A stretch of DNA of 64,000 nucleotides, taken from Antedon bifida (lineage: Eukaryota; Echinodermata; Crinoidea; Comatulida; Antedonidae). A model generated the notes under the pieces. That model was not told the DNA's origin and made no database searches. It was given only the letters and a program-made list of their open reading frames with translations. Below, one piece after another: positions 29,011 to 57,800 of this stretch; positions within the stretch are counted from its first letter, which is position 1, and every line of letters begins with the position of its first letter. The position numbers and the translations under genes were made by a program. The stretch spans positions 7,249,001-7,313,000 of the forward strand of contig OY727098.1 of assembly GCA_963402885.1 (NCBI GenBank). The letters are read 5' to 3'.

Positions 29011-29017
29011 CCTCAAC
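29011..29017. repeat. Target-site duplication, left copy
   Basis: CCTCAAC directly abuts the left terminus of the transposon and is repeated exactly at 35470-35476. Confidence 0.85.
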
Positions 29018-29051
29018 CATGGAGAAATAAGTTAGGAAGGAGTAACATCGA
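29018..29051 (+). repeat. Left terminal inverted repeat of the P-type transposon
   Basis: 34 bp beginning CATGGAGAAATAAGTTAGG and ending GTAACATCGA, identical to the reverse complement of 35436-35469. Confidence 0.95.
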
Positions 29052-30069
29052 TGTAATGCATGGATTTTAATCCAATTAAGCACATTACATGGTCAAATGA
29101 CTCCTATTAAATTGCACTGCGACCGCCCGCCGCGTTATCTCGGTTCGATCTCCTTACACACAAGGCTCCTCGCCGCTAAGTAGCAACCCCTATACCCTGT
29201 CTAACTAACAGTGGAGTACATAAATACGAACAAAAAACACATTGCATATGCGCAGTTAATTGTCAACAAGGATTCACATGCGTGTTTTATGTATTCGGAT
29301 TCCGAATTTTTTTGCGAACGTACCAGTCATTAAATCATTAAAATCAACCAAAAATAACTACTTGTTTCTTCAATTGTAAGTATTCCATTATTTTGAATAT
29401 AACAACGAAACAAACACGTATTTTAATAGTTTCCCTTTGTACTGGAGTTTTAAGTTTTAGTTATATGAATAAAGGAAAGCTGTAGCTTTCATTTGATGCC
29501 TTGCATGACAGTTTCCGATGGTGTCCGGCTGACATACAACGAATTGAAAAGCATCGAATCTGTCCGACCGCCGAACCGAATAGCCGGAGTTAGTTCCACC
29601 GGTCGTAGTTATTTTGGTCCACCGGTCGTTGTATTACTTAGGCCTAGGTCTAGGGCAGTTATTGTTTCGATGTTTAATTTAGGCTAGGTCTTAGATTTAA
29701 ATTTTAAACCAATAAATAATAACTAACATTAGCCATAAAATAATTACTTTCGTAGGCCTACTACTACTACTAGCTAGGCTAGGACTAAAGTACTCGACTC
29801 CTAGCTAGGGTCTAGTCCTACTAGGCTAGACCTACCTATTGTTCTATGTACTATTTATCATAGAGGTAATGTTAATCTACCACCTAGGGTTATGCCAAAA
29901 ATACCAATACTACTATCTAGGGCCGGCCTAATTAGACTATGTTCAATAACATTAACAATAAAAAAAAGCAGGTATTTATTTTTAGTTAGCTAGCCTAGAT
30001 AGTACTACTACTAGGACAACAACTCTAGGTCATCATTCGCCATTTAAATTAAATTGCTCTTGTTTTCAG
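29052..30069 (+). promoter_or_regulatory. Transposon leader region upstream of the transposase
   Basis: The TTTTCAG acceptor at 30063-30069, just before the transposase ATG, suggests an upstream non-coding or short coding exon spliced in. A 63-codon open frame at 29493-29687 could contribute such an exon, but I see no convincing donor. Many CTAGGCCTA and GGCTAGGACT words are present. No TATA box could be assigned. Confidence 0.4.
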
Positions 30070-30075
30070 AGAACG

Positions 30076-33000
30076 ATGACAGGACACAGTGTTTGTTTGA
30101 AACCTACTTGTCGACTTTGTGGAATTTCCAGGGCGATTCCTTCAGATCGTTCACCTTATACAAAGGACGCGTTCAAGTCTGTAATCAAGTCATGTTTTTG
30201 CTTAGATATTGATAATGATGATCCAGAAATCCACCCACCATTTATTTGTTATTCCTGTGTGCAAAAACTGAAAAGGTGGAAGAAAGGCCACAGCAAGGAC
30301 CGCAGTAAAGTGTGCAATATTGTAATTGCAAAATTCAATGATTCTCAATGTGCGTCTTGTATAACTGATGGGGAGATTCCTACCAATCTTCACGATTACA
30401 GAAAGGAAGCAGAAAAATGTAGCCTTGTCTCTTTGTTTCCACATGAAGATGAATTACTAATAATTAGACTTTCACCAACTGGTGATGCTGTCATCAAGTT
30501 AACAGTCAACAGTGATTCGACATGGGGAGTTGTCATTGCTGGTGTTGTATTGCAAGCACAGCCTATTCTAGGAGAAGTCTTTAACAAAAAATTACCATTA
30601 CATCAGTTCACCAAGCTGTGTGATATATTGAGGAGTGCTAAAATCTGTGCAGGCAATGAAGATTATTTAGATTTGATAGAGAGACGAAAAGGACCAGAAG
30701 GGCAGATTCCTATAAGGATAACACCAAAAGATGTCTATTTATGCAACACCATTAGACATAATGACTGTGAATTGCTAATTGCTGAGGATCTGAAGCGGTG
30801 CGCAGTTTGCCGAATTTATCGTGGGGATTTATCATCAATGCGAAGTGCTTCCTGCAAGGAAAAGTCTTCACTGACGGTAGCCAACAAGTATTTATCAAAT
30901 TCTCAACTGCAGAACAAAGCAGCAACATTACAATGTAATTACAGACGGTTGAAAAGAAAGAGTGGTTCCCTTGAGAATAAAGTTTCCAAGATGTACATGC
31001 TAGAAAGCAAATTAATTTCTGAAAATGCAGCTCACTTAATGGAAGACACAATGGAAATGGGAAAACCTGAAATTGAGAGTTTATTATGTAAATATCCGTC
31101 AGCAAAGCTTTTGTGGGAGCAGCAACTGGCATCTATGGGCAAGGGAAAGCAGATGCGTTGGCACCCGGCAATTTTACGTTGGTGCATTGCTATCCAAAGC
31201 AAGTCTCCGTCAGCTTATAATTTAATTCGCGAAAGTGGATTCATGACGCTGCCTCATCCAAACACACTCCAACCCTACAGCCACTTTGCTGGTGTGACAA
31301 CTGGTTTTTGCCATGAGATGTTAAGTAGAGTTGTAACAGACCTCAAATTATATGAAGAAGGTAATGAATTGCAAAAACATGTTGTGCTATTATTTGATGA
31401 AATGAAGATAAAATCAGGATTGGTTTTTTCACAAAGCTCTGGCAAAGTTGTTGGATCAACAGATGTAGGCAGCTTAGCCAATGAGATGCATTCATTTGAG
31501 CGGCGATGTCGAGGTGAAGAAGAAATCCCAGTTGCCTCACATGTTCTGGTGTTGATGATCCGGGGTTTGTTTTCTAACCTGCATGTTCCAATTGCCTACT
31601 ATCCAACAACTGGAGCTTCTAGTTGTGATCTGTTCATGGCAATGTGGGAAGCTGTTGAGATGATCGAAGTAGCTGGGTTTGTAGTTCATGCGATGGTTTC
31701 TGATGGTGCCACTCCGAACAGGAAGTTTTACAGACTGCATTCACCATCATCTACCACTTCATCCATTGTCTTCAAGACATCGCATCAGGGAGACCCAGAT
31801 CGCAGTGTTTTTTTCTACAGTGATGTGCCGCATCTAATAAAGACGCTTCGAAACAATGTAGAGAACTCTGGCTACAATAACAAGACACGGAATCTTCATG
31901 TAAGTACTGTATGATCATACACCACATTGAAAATACCAATTTCATTATAGCATGTTGAAAATGATATTTACTTATTTCTAAATCTAAAAATGTTCTTCAT
32001 TTAAAGTATAACAAACAAGACATCAAGTGGAGTCATTTTCTTGACACCTATGAATGGGATGTGAAATTGCAGAACACATGTCCAGGGCTGAGGATGCTCC
32101 ACAAGTTGACGCATGAACACCTCCACCTTACTCCATCATTGAGAATGCGGGTATACTTGGCTGCACAGGTAATTACTTGCAAGTTTTGTGTTCAGCCCTT
32201 GTTCTTTTGCAAACAATTCTGTAATTTAATTTTTCATGAATGTTTTTTATTTTCTTCATATTTTCAGGTGTTAAGCAATTCGACAGCAAATGCAATGGAG
32301 ATTATGGATCGACATGACATGACATCCACTATCAAATTTGTTAGAATGGTAGACCAATTTTTTGATTGCCTTAATGTCTCTAGTTTTTTCCAAGGCAAAC
32401 GATCCAGAAAACCAGCTATGGAGCCATACAGGACAAAAGATGACTGGCGTTTTAAGGTACATTTTTTTTAAATAGAAAATTTAAAAAAAATTGAACATGG
32501 GAAATGATTGGGCTTATTATTGTTTTTGTTCAATTTCAATTAGCATTTGGATATACATTGAGAAATATCTATAATTTTTGTATTAATCGAAGGAATAATT
32601 GCCACTATTTTTTGTTCTGATGTTTTTAAGTGGTTGCAAGATGACTTCCTGGGTTTCTTTAAAGAATGGCAAGACGAGGTGAATGCGCTTGAAGATGTAG
32701 AGAAGAGTGTAAAAAAGAGGATGTTATTAAGCACCGCAACACTTGATGGACTTGAGATAACAAGCAAGTACATTTCGTTTTTTTTTTACAGCTGACTTTG
32801 TTTAATAATTAATCAAAAGTTCTGACATCACAAGAGTGACAAAGTATATTAAAAATGAATTAATAATAAGTATATTAATTTTTATTCTTTGCCATCAACA
32901 GTTAATTCGTTTGTAGAGTTGACTAAAAAACTACTGGACCTGCCAGGGGTAGAGTGTGTTCTAAGTGCGAAGTATAATCAAGATCCGTTGGAACAGTACT

Positions 33001-33191
33001 TCAGTAAACAGAGAGGATGTGGTGGAAGTAACACAAACCCAACATCAATGCAGTTTGGCCACAATATGCATGCACTGTATGTAGCTGCGAACTGTTCCAA
33101 GGCATCCAGGAGAGGCAACTGCCGCAGCCAAATTGTTGACCAAACTATTGATGACTCACCTCTTCAAAGGAAGAAGACACCAAATGCATAA
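30076..33191 (+). CDS. P-element-superfamily transposase with RAG1-like N-terminal zinc module
   Basis: Five exons, 30076-31899, 32007-32168, 32268-32456, 32631-32763 and 32902-33191, join in frame to 865 residues. The fourth intron has a GC donor (GCAAGT); the others are GT-AG. Homology to P/THAP9 transposases is clear: HPNTLQPYSHF, VVLLFDEMKIKSGLVF, SDGATPNRKFY, SDVPHLIKTLRN, AAQVLSNSTANAM, and DPLEQYFSKQRG near the C-terminus. By position these give the catalytic acids D441 (DEM), D543 (SDG) and E800 (DPLE). A Leu-rich coiled coil spans about residues 275-315. The N-terminus is not a standard THAP domain. C12-x2-C15, then LDIDNDDPEIHPPFICYSC (H53, C58, C61) and C92-x2-C95 resemble the zinc-binding N-terminal region of RAG1; ZAD or a diverged THAP fold are alternatives. 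A further C242-x2-C245 pair follows. It is expected to bind the element ends in the nucleus and catalyse excision and insertion. The ATG follows a splice acceptor by six bases, and an upstream exon may add residues. Confidence 0.92.
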
Positions 33192-33324
33192 ATGATATTT
33201 ATGATCAGCAAACTTTTTCAAACCAAACGGTTCTTTTCAGAACCAACCAAAATACAATTGAGATTTAAGTTAGCTATTGTCGTTATTTATTTCATCACAC
33301 ACACAAAATACAAAATAGTATATA
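33192..33324. terminator. Shared 3' region between convergent transposon genes
   Basis: 133 bp separate the two stop codons. A minus-strand AATAAA lies at 33291-33286. For the plus-strand gene only a weak AATACA (33251-33256) is visible. The two transcripts probably overlap at their ends. Confidence 0.45.
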
Positions 33325-35190
33325 TTACAACAATTCTTTTCTGAGAGATTTTTCACCCTTTTTTGAAACTTTGCCGCTTTCCTTCTTTAAATTCAAGTAT
33401 ACCTTGAGGAATGCATTAGCTCTGATTTTCAACCAGTATCTAACTACAATTTGTAATAATTGAGCAGAAGCATTGTCACCTAGTGTATCTCTGGTTATTC
33501 TGCACCAGAAAGTTTGAACATTCTCCTTATTGATAATACGGTCATACAAATCAGCCAGATAGTTACTATTTAACATCGTATTAAGTTTATTTGTAGCTAA
33601 ATGCTGCCTTGTTTCTATTTCAACGCTTCTAAAAAACAGATATACATCGTCATCAACAACAAACAAACCTGATCTATTTTGTTTGTCGATCCATTCTTTG
33701 GAATAGTCGTAGAAGGAATGGGTTACGTTGGTACTACACACTTGCCACTTAGTGAGCACATCACAGTAGGCTCTGGCAGTACTACTTTTACCCTTTCGAA
33801 ATCTTTTCACAAGCGCATAAGGCACATAACCGGCAACGTACCGAATTATCTTTTCTGTGTGAACATCCAACTGTGGGATGTCAGTTACCGTTTCCTCATG
33901 TGGCAAATCTATTTTATGCTTATCATTTAGAATTAACCTTAACATTGTACGTTGCAAAAATAGGTTCAGTGTTTTTACATGCTGCCCATCAGAGTTGACA
34001 TTTAGCTCCTTTAACAGGGTGACCCACCTTCCCAAACTTGTACACATGTGTTGGTGAAATGCCCGGCACATCATCTCATCAGCTTCTGGTTTCATTTTCT
34101 TTGTGTTTCCTGATGTTATTACCTTCCAAAGTAATTTTGTACTGTCTTCCCAAAATGTTTTTATAATGACTGTATTTGAGTGCTTCTGCAGATCATTTGC
34201 CAATTTTTTCACTTGACGAGCTATTGGATACAAGTCATTGCTGTATACTGGATCGTTCGCTAACATGGTAAAAGCAGCATCAACGTATTCATTAACCCTG
34301 CTGACAGCTTCATCTTCACTAAACTTATTGGAGGGTCGGCTGATGCCTGAAAATACAGAAAAGAAAGATTATTGAGCATACAACAGTTTTAATAAATGAT
34401 GAGAATGCATTTAATATAGTAAAGATGAAATGTTCAAAATAAAATGTTATCATTCGTTCAAAATCCTTACTCTTTTTCCTTGATTGGTTTTTGGCTGGGT
34501 TTGTTGACACTTCCTTCTTCTGATGGGTTGCGGTAATAGTAGTTGGATGTAGGCCTACACTAACATCCATACCTAAATAGCATAATAAAATTGAAAATTA
34601 ACTCATGTTGTCCTATAAGAATGAAAAATAATAATTTATCTAAAAAATACAGACTAATACTAATACTAATGGTTTGAGGTCTTGACAAGGTCATAGATGA
34701 GTTGGTTGCATCAGATGATAATCGTGCCTTCATAATTAATATAATAATATGAATGATGCATTATTGATGATTGTGCAATAAAATTAATGATATATTAGGC
34801 CTAGGCCTCCTATAGGGGGAAATCCATGGATGGATAGATTATAGGGCCTAGCCTAGCTAGACCTATCAATAAATCGGGCGGCTAATTTTTGGCGTACAGA
34901 AAGAAAAACTACAAAAATACTACCTAGCCTAGAGAGGACGAACGAATTCAGAATTATCGTTGTTACAATCAACCCGGTCGTGTAGACAGCCTAGAGTGGG
35001 CCGGGGCAGACGAGGCCTCTTTAAAAGAGAAGAGGTTCAGGTAACTAGGCCTAGGCCTAGCTACTAAACTTAAATGCAATGCCTAGTTTTAACCTAGCAT
35101 ACCATTTTCCAGGTCTTCATGTTCGCTGGCAAACTTCAATTCCTCGAGAATTCCGGGTTCCAATTCGTCCTCCAATTCATAAAAATCCAT
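33325..35190 (-). CDS. Second gene of the transposon, protein of unknown function
   Basis: Three exons on the minus strand, 35190-35103, 34572-34471 and 34346-33325, join in frame to 403 residues; the splice sites are GTATGC, GTAAGG and clean AG acceptors. The N-terminus MDFYELEDELEPG is acidic. A short Lys/Ser-rich linker (KKEVSTNPAKNQSRKK) follows, then a mostly helical body with IIRYVAGYVPYALVKRF, GLFVVDDDVYLFF and a basic end KVSKKGEKSLRKELL. No zinc cluster, kelch repeat, nuclease or methyltransferase motif was seen. I do not recognise a named family, although body motifs of this kind feel familiar from unannotated cnidarian and echinoderm proteins. Lying convergent with the transposase inside the same terminal repeats, it is likely an accessory factor of transposition or its regulation; that is inference. 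An in-frame ATG at 35313 would add 41 residues; I chose 35190 for the acidic start. Confidence 0.8.
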
Positions 35191-35435
35191 AATGATAAAT
35201 AAAACGCGTAAATAAAATGTATCGAGTGTGGTATAATTATTCTTCTGCTGTGTGTATGGTCGCCGCGTGTGTAGATCAGCATCAACAACGAGTCTCGCTT
35301 GATGACGCGTCACATGAAAGCAATGGATATGCGCATGCTCAAATCTAACAAGCGACAGATCAACGGCAATTAAATGTTACGTAACAGTCAGATAATCCAA
35401 TTAGCGGCGGGGTGGCCTATTCGTTTGATGTATTC

Positions 35436-35469
35436 TCGATGTTACTCCTTCCTAACTTATTTCTCCATG
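35436..35469 (-). repeat. Right terminal inverted repeat of the P-type transposon
   Basis: Exact 34-bp inverse of the left terminus, ending ACTTATTTCTCCATG on the plus strand. Confidence 0.95.
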
Positions 35470-35476
35470 CCTCAAC
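35470..35476. repeat. Target-site duplication, right copy
   Basis: CCTCAAC immediately follows the right terminus and matches 29011-29017. Confidence 0.85.
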
Positions 35477-51800: not shown

Positions 51801-54800
51801 TCGATATGCATTTACCTGTTCCACAAGTAAATGCTTTCAACGTGGGAAAGTCGTTTGGTCAAATGATATAATGTTTAAACGAAGTAGGTAATATAAACCT
51901 CGATCACTAGTGAGCCTAACCTCGATCACTAGTGAGCCTAACCTCGATCACTAGTGAGCCTAACCTCGATCACTAGTGAGCCTAACCTCGATCACTAGTG
52001 AGCCTAACCTCATATTTATTTGGATTTACACCTTTACATCGGTGGCACACTTCAAATACAAAGGTGCATCCTTCAAAATAACAATACAAATGAAAAGAAA
52101 AATTAACACAAGTAGGTAAAATTGCGAAGAAGCAAGATAATCAATAACATAAAATTAATCAAACCATAGCACTACCCCACCACCAATCCTCTTTAAATTT
52201 ATCTAATAATTTAAATTTATTTAATAATGTAAATTCGGCCAGAAGTATGTTAAGCTCGGATCAATTCGGCCAACGTTCTTGCAAGCTCGGATCATGGAGA
52301 ATTAACGTATTTCTCCTTGCTCGGATCAATTCGGCCAGAAATCTGGCAAGCTCGGATCAATTCGGCCAACGTTCTTGCAAGCTCGGATCATTGAGAATTA
52401 ACTAATTTCTCCTTGCTCGGATCAATTCGGTCAGAAATCTGGCAAGCTCGGATCAATTCGTCCAGAAATCTGGCAAGCTCAGATCAATTCGGCCAGCAAT
52501 CTGGCAAGCTCGGTTCAGTTCGGCCAGCCAGACCATGAGTTCCAATCTTTATTCAATGTCCAGAGCTTACCTTAGTTTTACTCATTGATTAAATGAGTTT
52601 ATTTGTGATTTTTTAAAGTAAATATAATGTATACTGCATGTAATTGCCTTCGTCTCAAATGACTCTCTTATTATGAAACTGATTTCACTAAATGACATAA
52701 CGTTTTAATGCCCTATTTCGTTTTACCAAAATAATAATGTTTGTCTATTATATCAGGAAATCTGAAGCTTTCCTAATGGAGGTTATATTGTGTTACATTT
52801 TAATTAAAGTTGATCTCATTTGATTGGTTGATCAAAATGCATTAAAATATTTGATTTTGCTCTGGGGCTATAACAGCTTAGCAACCATTAACATTGTATA
52901 TTTATCATTGTCTATTGACACTCAGCTATCAAAACAAGTTAGTTTACCTTGTCAGATCATAGTGAGCCGACTGTCTTGGTGTTTATTTTCGACTTTAGTG
53001 AATTACAATTAAAAACATAAGTATTAATTACATTACAATAATTACACATTAATGTTAATAGGTTAATCCTTAAGTATCAACCGCTTCATATCCAAGCCGA
53101 AGGTCGCGGGATAATGTGATTAATCTTTGTACTGTATAATTTAAACTTGATCCTACGTCGAATTATTAAATGTTTACAGTTTACTCAGCGTCATACCCTA
53201 TAAATCGCTTTTTCGCTCAAATTATTTGTAAGGCCTACTATATTTCCGTTTTCTCGTGAAGCGATTTTGCGCCTGTCTAAATTGATTGTAACAAACTACT
53301 GTAACAAACTTAATTGGAAAACAAATGTCTAAAATGTAACCCGTATTTCGTCCATCGGTATATATAATTTATAAATAAACTGATTTACTGAAAAATGTAT
53401 TTGTATATTTGTAGCAAGCGCACGACAAGACTTGATATAGGCTTCCGTAAATAAAGTTTAGTAATTGAATTAAAACAAAGTTTTAGGCCTAAAAAAAGCC
53501 TGGTTTCAGGGACGCTATGCGTCTTTGACGAAGTTCCCCGGTTCGTCACGGACTCCCGGCAAGTCACGGACTCCCGGCAAGTCACGGACTCCCGGCAAAG
53601 TTTCAATATCCTCCATACCCCTCATACCCTGCCTCATTTTTGTTTTCAACATAAACTTTAATTGACACACATTAAAAAAAATATGTTGGGTTTATTAATT
53701 ATTAAGACATAGGTGGTAAAATGAAAAAGAAGAAAAGTGGCAACTGCTGCCTAAGGTTGACAAAAGTGCACCTTTTATATAAGTGGCAATGACCGGGTGG
53801 CAAAAGGCGATGTTGCGATCGGCCCTAGACCCGTTTTATGAACCTAGCTAGCGTACGAATTTAATTGTGTATCTCTTTTTTTTAGATTGTACCGTTGTCT
53901 GCATCTGTAGATGACTATGACCCAAACGTGGTAAGAACATATACCTTTATTTGTTAGCACAACTAATTTGCATATTTCTGTTTCTATAATGGTTTCCATG
54001 GAGACAACAAGGCCCTGTGTTTCTTAAATTACTGTATAACGATTTACATTTATATAATTTGTTATAATGCCGACAGATTCCGTTGATATTATTGGGATAG
54101 GCCTATATCGAATATTACAATTGCACTTTTTATTTCATATTAGTAATAATCTTCATTTCAATATAGTTAGAGATTACATGGCGCCAAATAAAAAAGTGTT
54201 TTATTCGACGCGTCCACTCATTTCAATGGTTTTCTTTATTTTTTTTTCTTTATTTTTTGTGTGGATCGTTTCTTGTCGGGATTCTAATCAAAAAGATAAT
54301 ACTGCATTGTTATGTTGTCGATTTATGCTACCTACTCTTTTTAATTACTATATTAGAAAGTATGGCAAAGCTTCAATGATGACGTGTACAACTTCATTAT
54401 CTATATGATAACGTTCATGATAGTTGTGAAGATATGGGAGGAACACGCAATGTAAGTTGACCATCAACAACATACCCACCCATTCTCCAACACCACACCC
54501 ATCCATTCTACAACTCCACACCCATCCATTCTACAACACCACACCCACCAATTCTCTAACACCACACCCACCCATTCTCCAACACCACACCCATCCATTC
54601 TACAACTCCACACCCACCAATTCTCTAACACCACACCCACCCATTCTCCAACACCACACCCATCTATTCTCCAACTCCACACCCACCACTTCTCCAATAC
54701 CACATCCTCCCCTTCTCCAATACCACACCCACCCATTCTCCAACACCACACCCACTCCTTCTCCAACACCACACCCACCCCTCTCAAACGCCACACCCAC

Positions 54801-57800
54801 CCATCCTCCAACACCACACTCACCCATCCTCCAACACCACACCCACTCCTTCTCCAACACCACACGCACCCCTTCTCCAACACCACACCCATTTCTGCTC
54901 CAACACCACACCCATTTTTTTCTCCTTCACCACACCCATCCCTTCTTCAAAACCACACCCATCCATCCTCCAACACCACACCCATCCATCCTCCAACACC
55001 ACACCCATCCCTTCTTCAAAACCACTCCCATCCATCTTCCAACACCACACCCACTCCTTCTCCAACACCACACCCACCCATTTTCCAACACCACACCCAC
55101 CCATCCTCCAACACCACACCCACCCATCCTCCAACACCACACCCACCCATCCTCCAACACCACACCCACCCATCCTCCAAAACCACACCCATCCATCCTC
55201 CAACACCACACCCACCCATCCTCCAACACCACACCCACCCATCCTCCAACACCACACCCACCCATCCTCCAACACCACACCCACCCATCCTCCAACACCA
55301 CACCCACCCATCCTCCAACACCACACCCACCCATCCTCCAACACCACACCCACCCATTCTCCAACACCACACCCACCCATCCTCCAACACCACACCCACC
55401 CATCCTCCAACAGCCTAGTAAAGGCATGCCATACTTTATTGGCCATCAAATAAACAGCCATAAGTCGCGTGCTAAAACGCATAGTGATACCGGACCGACA
55501 GACAGACCGACAGACCGACCGACATAGTGAACTATAGAGTCGCGTCCACGCGACTAAAAAGAGGAGGATGAAGATACCCCTATTAAGAGGATACTTTATT
55601 GGTTCCCGAAGGTGTCCCTTCAATGTGTTTTAACCTGTGATAACATTAATGCTGATTATTATTTTCGATTTCTACCTTTTTCAGTATATTTAGTACAATG
55701 AGGAATATTGGAGATACTGCGATTGTACTAAATGTTGTAAGTATATTGTCTCTATGCCTATATAATAATATTGCACAATCCAAATCAAATAATTTACAAT
55801 AACTCTTCAATTAAATTATTGTTTAATGTACTATGACGAATGGACGTGGTTAAGGCATAGATCCTTTCAAACAAAAATAGTTCCCCAAATTAGCAATCCT
55901 ACTTTAGAACATCCCTATAACAGGGGTTATGTTTACATGTGTTAACAAGTATAATTTACTATGTAATATATACTGTCGTTGATTAGTGAACCATTTCACA
56001 ATTACTTATTGTAAACAATATCAAATAAATTGTTAAATTTACGAGTCATTTTTTTACGTTCAACAAATCCTTCATTAACTTTAATTAACGTGCCCTTAAG
56101 TTACCTGAACACAAATATCATAAGTGTTTTGATGGTTATAAATTATTTGCTAATCATAAACGAAAGGCATATGCAGAAAGGGCAACAATAACGTAGATAT
56201 CAGTGGCGAGGTCTATCTCTTTTTTTATCCTCTTTTTTTCTCCCCCAATACCATCTTTCTGTCGCAACTTCCAGTGCACTCATCTGTAAATGAGTACATG
56301 GTTAAAAAACAGGGGCTGTGTGAAAAGTGTGAAAAGGAACTGGCCACCCTACCACTAGTGTCAAGAGCTCCTAAAAGCACATTCCCTACTTTTAAAACGA
56401 TGTACGATACTCCCTAATTTAATTGCCGTGAATGTTTGAGGTAGAAAAAATAGACTTTAAAAAGTAGCAGGTGAGAAATTCCAAGGTTTTTCGAATAATC
56501 GAATGTATGGTACATTAAAGTAAATCATGTTTTATCATCTTATTTTGTATCTATTATTTTCAGATTCTACTTCTTGTTGTGAGCCTTATACCTTTCTTTG
56601 TAAGTATTTAACCTTGTTTTAATAGTGGATCTGTGGCTTGATGGTTACGTGCTTGGCTTCTAATCCAAGCTTACGACTGTTTCTTCATTCCCTAGCCTCA
56701 AATGAGACTTGGTTTATAAGCACGAGATATAGTTTATACATTGTATAATTGGTCATTTGCTTGCTGAATTGAAGGATGTGTATGACAAACCCCGTAGTTA
56801 AGCAGTTGTCTGTTTATCAGTGCATCTCATTTGGTGTTAAATTCCATCGAATTAATGGGGATGCTAATGGGACTAATTAGCACATCACAGAACCTGTACG
56901 TAACTATCCAATTATGAAATGACTGTAAAAATACCAAGATTGTTATATCTTATATAATAGTATTTGTAGGCCTAATATTCAGTATTTTATAATATTTTGT
57001 CTGTTTATCAAGGGCCTAAATGATAAGTCTCTTCACTGAAACAGGACAGTATTGAACCCACAAAATGTGAAAACGCCCACAAAATGTGAAAACGCCTACA
57101 AATGTAAAAACAACCAAATTTGTGGGTTCAACAGACAGTCCACCTTCATTACATATGGTAATACATAGATAATTAATTAATCAAACTGCAGGACCAAAAC
57201 AGCAACTTCAAGATCGATGATAGATGTGTTAATTTTGCCACGAAAACTTGACAGTTCATCAATCTATATAAGTTCTCCTTCAATTTAAAAGGTGTTTTAC
57301 GGATGTTGATAAACGATTTCTTTTCAGTCAACACTTCTTGGTGAATTTCCACTTGAACCCTTGGCACTCATCTTACAAGGGTGTTGTTTTCTACTTATTA
57401 TCATCCTTGAAGTGAGTACAATATTCTTTACATATTTGTTAAAAATCGATATAATTCGCTTTCTGTGAGTAATGTGAAGATAATACAGTACAACAGAATC
57501 ATGTGAAACAATCATTGTTTATATATCTGAGAATTGTGTATAGACTACATTATAGGTATTTGTATTGAATAGCATGCAGTATCACTTTAAAATGGTTCGA
57601 GTTCGGCTTGCTGTGGGTGGGGAAGGGGAAACCCAATATACGCTCAGTTCTCCATAGGCCCTACATACGTACAACACAAGTATGCTGACCAATAGCAAGC
57701 GCCGATTTGGATGATCCATCGTGTGTGACATTATTGACTGGGCCAGTGGGTCACTATGACGCAAGGACGTAAACGCAACGCAAGTAATTTGACCAATCAA

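Follow-up and report, generated by a model that had tools for sequence, protein, structure and literature searches.

The transposase of the Drosophila P element (6p5a/6pe2) combines an RNase H domain carrying a GTP-binding insertion (GBD), a helix-turn-helix (HTH) and DDE catalytic residues, and is the product of one gene, with a THAP domain and a C-terminal domain (CTD) in cis; in the structural account, the CTD is all-helical and the target site duplication (TSD) is 8 bp long (PMC7776569). The element described here lies at positions 29018-35469 of a 64,000-nt stretch of the crinoid Antedon bifida genome (GCA_963402885.1, contig OY727098.1, positions 7,249,001 to 7,313,000 of the forward strand; this whole stretch is called the window), and it shares the interrupted RNase H domain, the HTH and the DDE residues with the P element, but has two genes, no THAP match and a 7-bp TSD. 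In both elements the terminal inverted repeats (TIRs) start with CATG and palindromic targets are preferred, and we know of no second gene or histone stem-loop in the P element. Galileo, a Drosophila member of the superfamily, resembles the window element in its 7-bp TSD, and is unlike it in that its TIRs are very long and one gene alone encodes its transposase. Zebrafish Pdre2 / THAP9 also has a P-superfamily transposase and a TIR that starts with CAT; unlike the window element, THAP9 is presented as a single chain with CTD, an 8-bp TSD and a 13-bp TIR (PMC10983969). The catalytic core places the window element in the P superfamily, though outside the canonical P/THAP9 type.

The other relevant comparison is with ProtoRAG / TransibSU (RAG1L-RAG2L), in which a catalytic DDE subunit and a separate PHD partner are carried by one transposon, an arrangement paralleled by the window family, where some relatives have a PHD finger. 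ProtoRAG / TransibSU is described as having a Transib core, a 5-bp TSD and a Kelch-PHD partner (PMC4411706, PMC8355894). The window element has neither the Transib-type RNase H core nor the Kelch partner of a RAG1/RAG2 transposon; the two are not homologous as a unit, but are alike in their division of labour. We consider it likely that the element is a complete, very recently mobile cut-and-paste transposon of the P superfamily that encodes its transposase in two parts, by the convergent genes ORF1 and ORF2, with an ORF1 mRNA that most likely ends in a histone-type stem-loop.

The ends of the element agree exactly with an earlier note on this DNA, which had proposed perfect 34-bp terminal repeats and a 7-bp target duplication. 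The left TIR (29018-29051, plus strand) starts with CATG and is complementary to the right TIR (35436-35469, minus strand) at 34/34 positions, and comparison of the flanks gives a TSD of 7 bp, not 8 (CCTCAAC at both 29011-29017 and 35470-35476, unstranded). The two uninterrupted spliced genes of that note are likewise present, as convergent predicted reading frames of 865 and 403 aa, neither with an internal stop.

ORF1 (plus strand) has five coding exons, with splice sites placed by inference. Exon 1 (30076-31899) encodes a zf-AD-like zinc domain and an HTH, both below cut-off (23.6 bits against a cut-off of 28 for zf-AD), and the N-terminal half of the RNase H domain with D441 and D543. The GBD that splits the domain is encoded by exons 2 (32007-32168) and 3 (32268-32456); exon 4 (32631-32763) has the one GC donor, and exon 5 (32902-33191, stop codon 33189-33191) encodes the C-terminal half of the RNase H domain, with E800. 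The three DDE residues were assigned by motif, and the first two align with 6p5a. No THAP domain was matched at E<=1 in a Pfam scan, and 65 aa follow the catalytic Glu, which leaves ORF1 with no in-chain CTD of the canonical P/THAP9 type. In the protein search the best relative is from the crinoid Anneissia japonica (67% identical), followed by starfish, sea cucumbers and others. The assignment to the P superfamily made in the earlier note is upheld by sequence, and by fold for a relative.

Some relatives of ORF1 differ from it at the N-terminus. The RAG1 importin-binding family PF12560 is a precomputed label on 10 of the 64 ORF1 protein matches, and was above cut-off, at up to E 1e-9, in P0008, P0010, P0028, P0034, P0035, P0038, P0046 and P0056, which were picked for scanning by that label; it had no match in the window ORF1 and was not above cut-off in P0006, P0012, P0013 and P0023. 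A RAG1 N-terminal-like region is therefore fused to P transposase cores in some ORF1 relatives. These relatives, not the window copy, resemble N-RAG-TP of Aplysia (Chapa domain), which has a RAG1-like N-terminal zinc region, and which is described as consisting of RAG1-N-like sequence only (PMC8355894). Separately, long open frames that are 26-27% identical to ORF1 occur at C7:13111189, C9:17294756, C10:16374742, C8:17850707, C1:19361839 and C7:22131971; these are probably another P lineage, perhaps a single-gene one.

The search for near-identical copies that the earlier note had proposed was carried out on the 315.6-Mb assembly (27 contigs). The first 283 bp of the element match at 100% in 16 places, one of them the window, a recurrence beyond chance; two more places match over nearly the whole length (96% and 84%), and there are short partial matches besides. 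Fifteen complete TIR-to-TIR copies were fetched, all with exact 7-bp TSDs (15/15; 8-bp TSDs, 0/15), as are found also at two additional copies (L024/25 and L026/27). Both genes are open in 13 of the 15; the others are L013, with an insertion at the start of ORF1, and L018, a 3583-bp deletion derivative. Eight copies are identical over 6453 bp, and the window copy and L010 show no difference over 6452 bp at different sites, so the family has moved very recently, in agreement with the recent insertion first suspected. Identity over more than 6 kb might also be produced by misassembled repeats, but the flanks and TSDs differ among the 14 distinct sites at which the 15 copies stand, L016/L017 being the only pair, in tandem, to share one, and we give this explanation almost no credence. 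The 14 sites have a palindromic pattern (T at -2 in 13/14, T at 2 in 10/14, A at 6 in 14/14 and A at 10 in 13/14), which L026/27 fits at all four places and L024/25 only at A(6) and A(10). The tandem pair (C9:27814044-27826956) has one 7-bp TSD, GTCTGAT, at all three junctions, and probably arose by insertion into the duplicated target of an earlier copy. The window copy itself is of a minority subtype, differing from the eight identical copies at 30363 (ORF1 residue 96, I for M) and at 33269 (within the histone downstream element-like stretch, see below), among other changes.

ORF2 (minus strand) is predicted to have three exons: exon 1 (35190-35103), encoding an acidic N-terminus, MDFYELEDEL; exon 2 (34572-34471); and exon 3 (34346-33325, stop 33325-33327), encoding a helical domain and then a domain with a putative match to the P transposase CTD. 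As for ORF1, the splice sites are inferred; the first exon (MDFYELEDELEP...) is backed by the Anneissia protein P0003 (MDFYELNDELDY...), and the best relatives are from Anneissia japonica (43% and 37%). The match between the ORF2 structure model and the P transposase CTD (6p5a_B) spans 112 of 118 residues, and its Z exceeds that of the next row by 5 units; on the strength of this model ORF2 probably provides the CTD that ORF1 lacks. Other comparisons gave little: Pfam had no match to ORF2 above cut-off, Foldseek returned no E below 0.2, the ORF2 profile against PDB sequences found one unrelated weak match only, and the C-terminus of the THAP-type protein P0067 had no match in PDB. When ORF2 was aligned by hhalign with the CTD of P0067, the register was the expected one, but the score lay within those of 40 shuffles. 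ORF2 might instead be an accessory or regulatory protein encoded by the element (e.g., a repressor or a chromatin-targeting factor), its fold match being a chance likeness of helical bundles. This we find doubtful, given that the matched domain is the very one that ORF1 is without, that the match was expected beforehand, and that it covers nearly the whole domain well clear of the next row. In the ORF2 leaders of loci L054 (E 1.7e-7) and L055 (E 4.5e-7) a PHD finger above cut-off comes after an acidic MEDFYTLDDFSDLDF-like start, which the window ORF2 keeps without the finger; partial fingers, below cut-off, are found in Acanthaster P0069 and Anneissia P0001.

The pairing of the two genes is not confined to the window family. 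There are 37 ORF2 matches in the genome, and at all six diverged loci with a stop-free ORF2 match that reaches the 3' end (L047, L049, L054, L055, L056 and L057; ORF2 27-44% identical) the 3' end of a convergent ORF1 is no more than 1.5 kb away. L058, the seventh diverged locus to have an ORF2 3' end, carries a stop and has no ORF1 in the fetched flank. Overall, ORF1 was seen in 9 of 14 ORF2 records (L045, L047, L048, L049, L051 and L054-L057) and not in the fetched flanks of five, which are L052, which probably holds the 5' portion of the L057 ORF2, and L046, L050, L053 and L058, which are fragments or carry stops. Open-frame matches to ORF1 exon 1 at C8:18356502, C11:12581732, C8:20158653 and C13:5592996 adjoin four of these ORF2 loci; there are also ORF1 pieces with no listed ORF2 nearby, such as C9:28392247 (open) and C8:28396567 and C15:13444763 (both with stops). 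In Anneissia, LOC117114750/751 and LOC117106473/474 are ORF1 and ORF2 homologs that are apparently neighbours, since their locus numbers are consecutive and their contigs equal in length.

Where a DNA transposon has a second, convergent gene, this may be one captured from a host, and the presence of the ORF2 3' end in L050 and L058, with no ORF1 in the fetched flank, would fit a capture of ORF2 by the window element alone. These two records carry stops, however, and look like broken copies, and ORF2 homologs adjoin ORF1 in diverged families of the host genome and apparently at the two Anneissia loci, which makes such a capture very improbable. The earlier note had named the second gene's occurrence as an ordinary host gene as a finding that would tell against it; in the one genome searched, the ORF2 matches without ORF1 in the fetched flank (L046, L050, L053 and L058) are fragments or carry stops. 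That note did not foresee the recurrence of the pair in diverged families, nor that ORF2 is probably a CTD, nor the histone stem-loop that follows ORF1.

This stem-loop, a signal which normally serves histone genes in animals, is the sole Rfam match at gathering threshold within the window. It lies at 33224-33270 in the sense of ORF1 (RF00032, 35.5 bits, gathering 34, E 1.3e-6), with its stem at 33229-33244, and its folding energy is -6.9 kcal/mol (z -4.3). In family 1, to which the window copy belongs, all complete copies (15/15) have it, 37 nt beyond the ORF1 stop. In family 2 (L055 and L056) it lies 29 nt past the stop and scores 42.2 bits (E 3e-9), with one pair changed on both sides, so that a stem-loop shortly past the stop is conserved above gathering in two families. 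A genome-wide scan, in which 75 of 58,233 candidates were scored, ranks the family-2 stem-loops 14 and 15, the family-1 stem-loops being outside the 75. For comparison, 12 of 14 sampled non-transposon stem-loop loci end genes that we take to be H1, H2A, H2B or H4, and the other two are not histones. The stop-to-stem distance in the histone genes is 28-34 nt (90 in an H1 gene with an insert, see below); GGCTCTTTTCAGAGCC is present at all 12 histone loci, at most of them with CAAACCAAACGG or a near match to it, and AAAGAGATT follows downstream at 10 of the 12. Family 1 has CAAACCAAACGGTTCTTTTCAGAACC and then AATTGAGATTTAATTT (AATTGAGATTTAAGTT in the window copy), and in family 2 the stem is canonical and is followed by AAAAAAAGAAATTTTG. 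By eye, the stretch AATTGAGATTTAAG at 33256-33269 (plus strand) resembles a histone downstream element.

ORF2 has a likely poly(A) signal, AATAAA, at 33286-33291 on the minus strand, whereas no AATAAA or ATTAAA for ORF1 was found up to 33400 in family 1. The element may thus yield two kinds of mRNA, one with a histone-type end and the other polyadenylated, that meet end to end and overlap little if at all. The stem-loop could also be a non-functional relic of a histone 3'UTR, the ORF1 mRNA being processed otherwise. One stem pair in family 1 is unlike those of the host histone genes, the copies of family 2 resemble deletion derivatives, with an AATAAA at about 110 nt past the ORF1 stop, and a search at E<=1 did not detect the stem-loop in four other records that include the 3' end of a diverged ORF1 (L047, L049, L054 and L057), from which it follows that it is a trait of some families. 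The changed pair still pairs, however, the distances from the stop in both families are near those of the histone genes, the downstream element-like stretch is retained, and family 1 lacks an alternative signal for ORF1 in the interval given above; we thus regard a relic as unlikely. Stem-loops of histone type with a downstream element are found also after frames not recognised as histones at L070 (C10:16939080) and L072 (C8:15133974); both frames contain AIDEGCRRLR-PR, and may represent a further gene or mobile element that ends in the manner of a histone gene.

The two family-2 copies are 97.7% identical, and their TIR pairs enclose 3702 bp (C1) and 3692 bp (C11). Most of ORF1 is apparently deleted from them (only residues 766-862 were matched), while ORF2 and the stem-loop are kept. 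A 52-bp family-2 remnant with a 7-bp TSD, CTCAAAC, lies in the 3'UTR of a histone H1 gene, directly before its stem-loop (L060:1037-1088, C11 about 18849636-18849687). The paralogous H1 gene L059 is an exact empty site, identical at 120/120 bp once the remnant and one TSD are subtracted. Insertion next to a histone 3' end suggests a route by which an element could acquire one.

A mechanism consistent with these features would have ORF1 as the catalytic subunit, which would recognise the transposon ends by means of its N-terminal zinc domain and HTH and use its GTP-dependent RNase H domain for cutting and joining, and ORF2 as the provider of the helical CTD in trans. In the single-chain Drosophila enzyme the CTD sits on a disordered linker and touches both transposon and target DNA; ORF1 and ORF2 most likely assemble on the TIRs, with ORF2 clamping transposon and target DNA in the manner of that CTD. 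Where relatives have one, the PHD finger of ORF2 may read chromatin or histone tails at the target. The histone-type end of the ORF1 mRNA may couple transposase synthesis, or confine it, to S phase, while the ORF2 mRNA would use its ordinary poly(A) signal. S-phase transposition is thought to favour a gain in copy number for cut-and-paste elements. More broadly, and with the balance about even, we propose that the element represents a distinct old branch of the P superfamily with a catalytic subunit and a separate subunit for target DNA and chromatin (CTD with or without PHD), parallel to RAG1/RAG2, in some families of which the catalytic subunit has come under the histone 3'-end pathway and transposase is made only during replication.

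If this is true, two separate genes encode the subunits of a P-type transposase, the break falling in the linker for which the solved structure shows no order, and the element offers a natural means of separating the function of the CTD from catalysis; the histone-type 3' end would tie transposition directly, at the molecular level, to S phase, and the combination of a catalytic subunit (in some relatives with a RAG1-N-like zinc domain) and a partner (in some with a PHD finger) would be a second case of RAG1/RAG2-like design. A literature search, which left out Repbase Reports, where a consensus entry may exist, found no paper that pairs a histone stem-loop with a transposase, and none whose title concerns P elements with two genes or transposons that carry a histone stem-loop. 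The intact, identical copies make the element testable.

Elsewhere in the window, 54430-55629 is a long low-complexity array with several open frames and translations such as TPTHPPTPHPPILQHH, probably a minisatellite.
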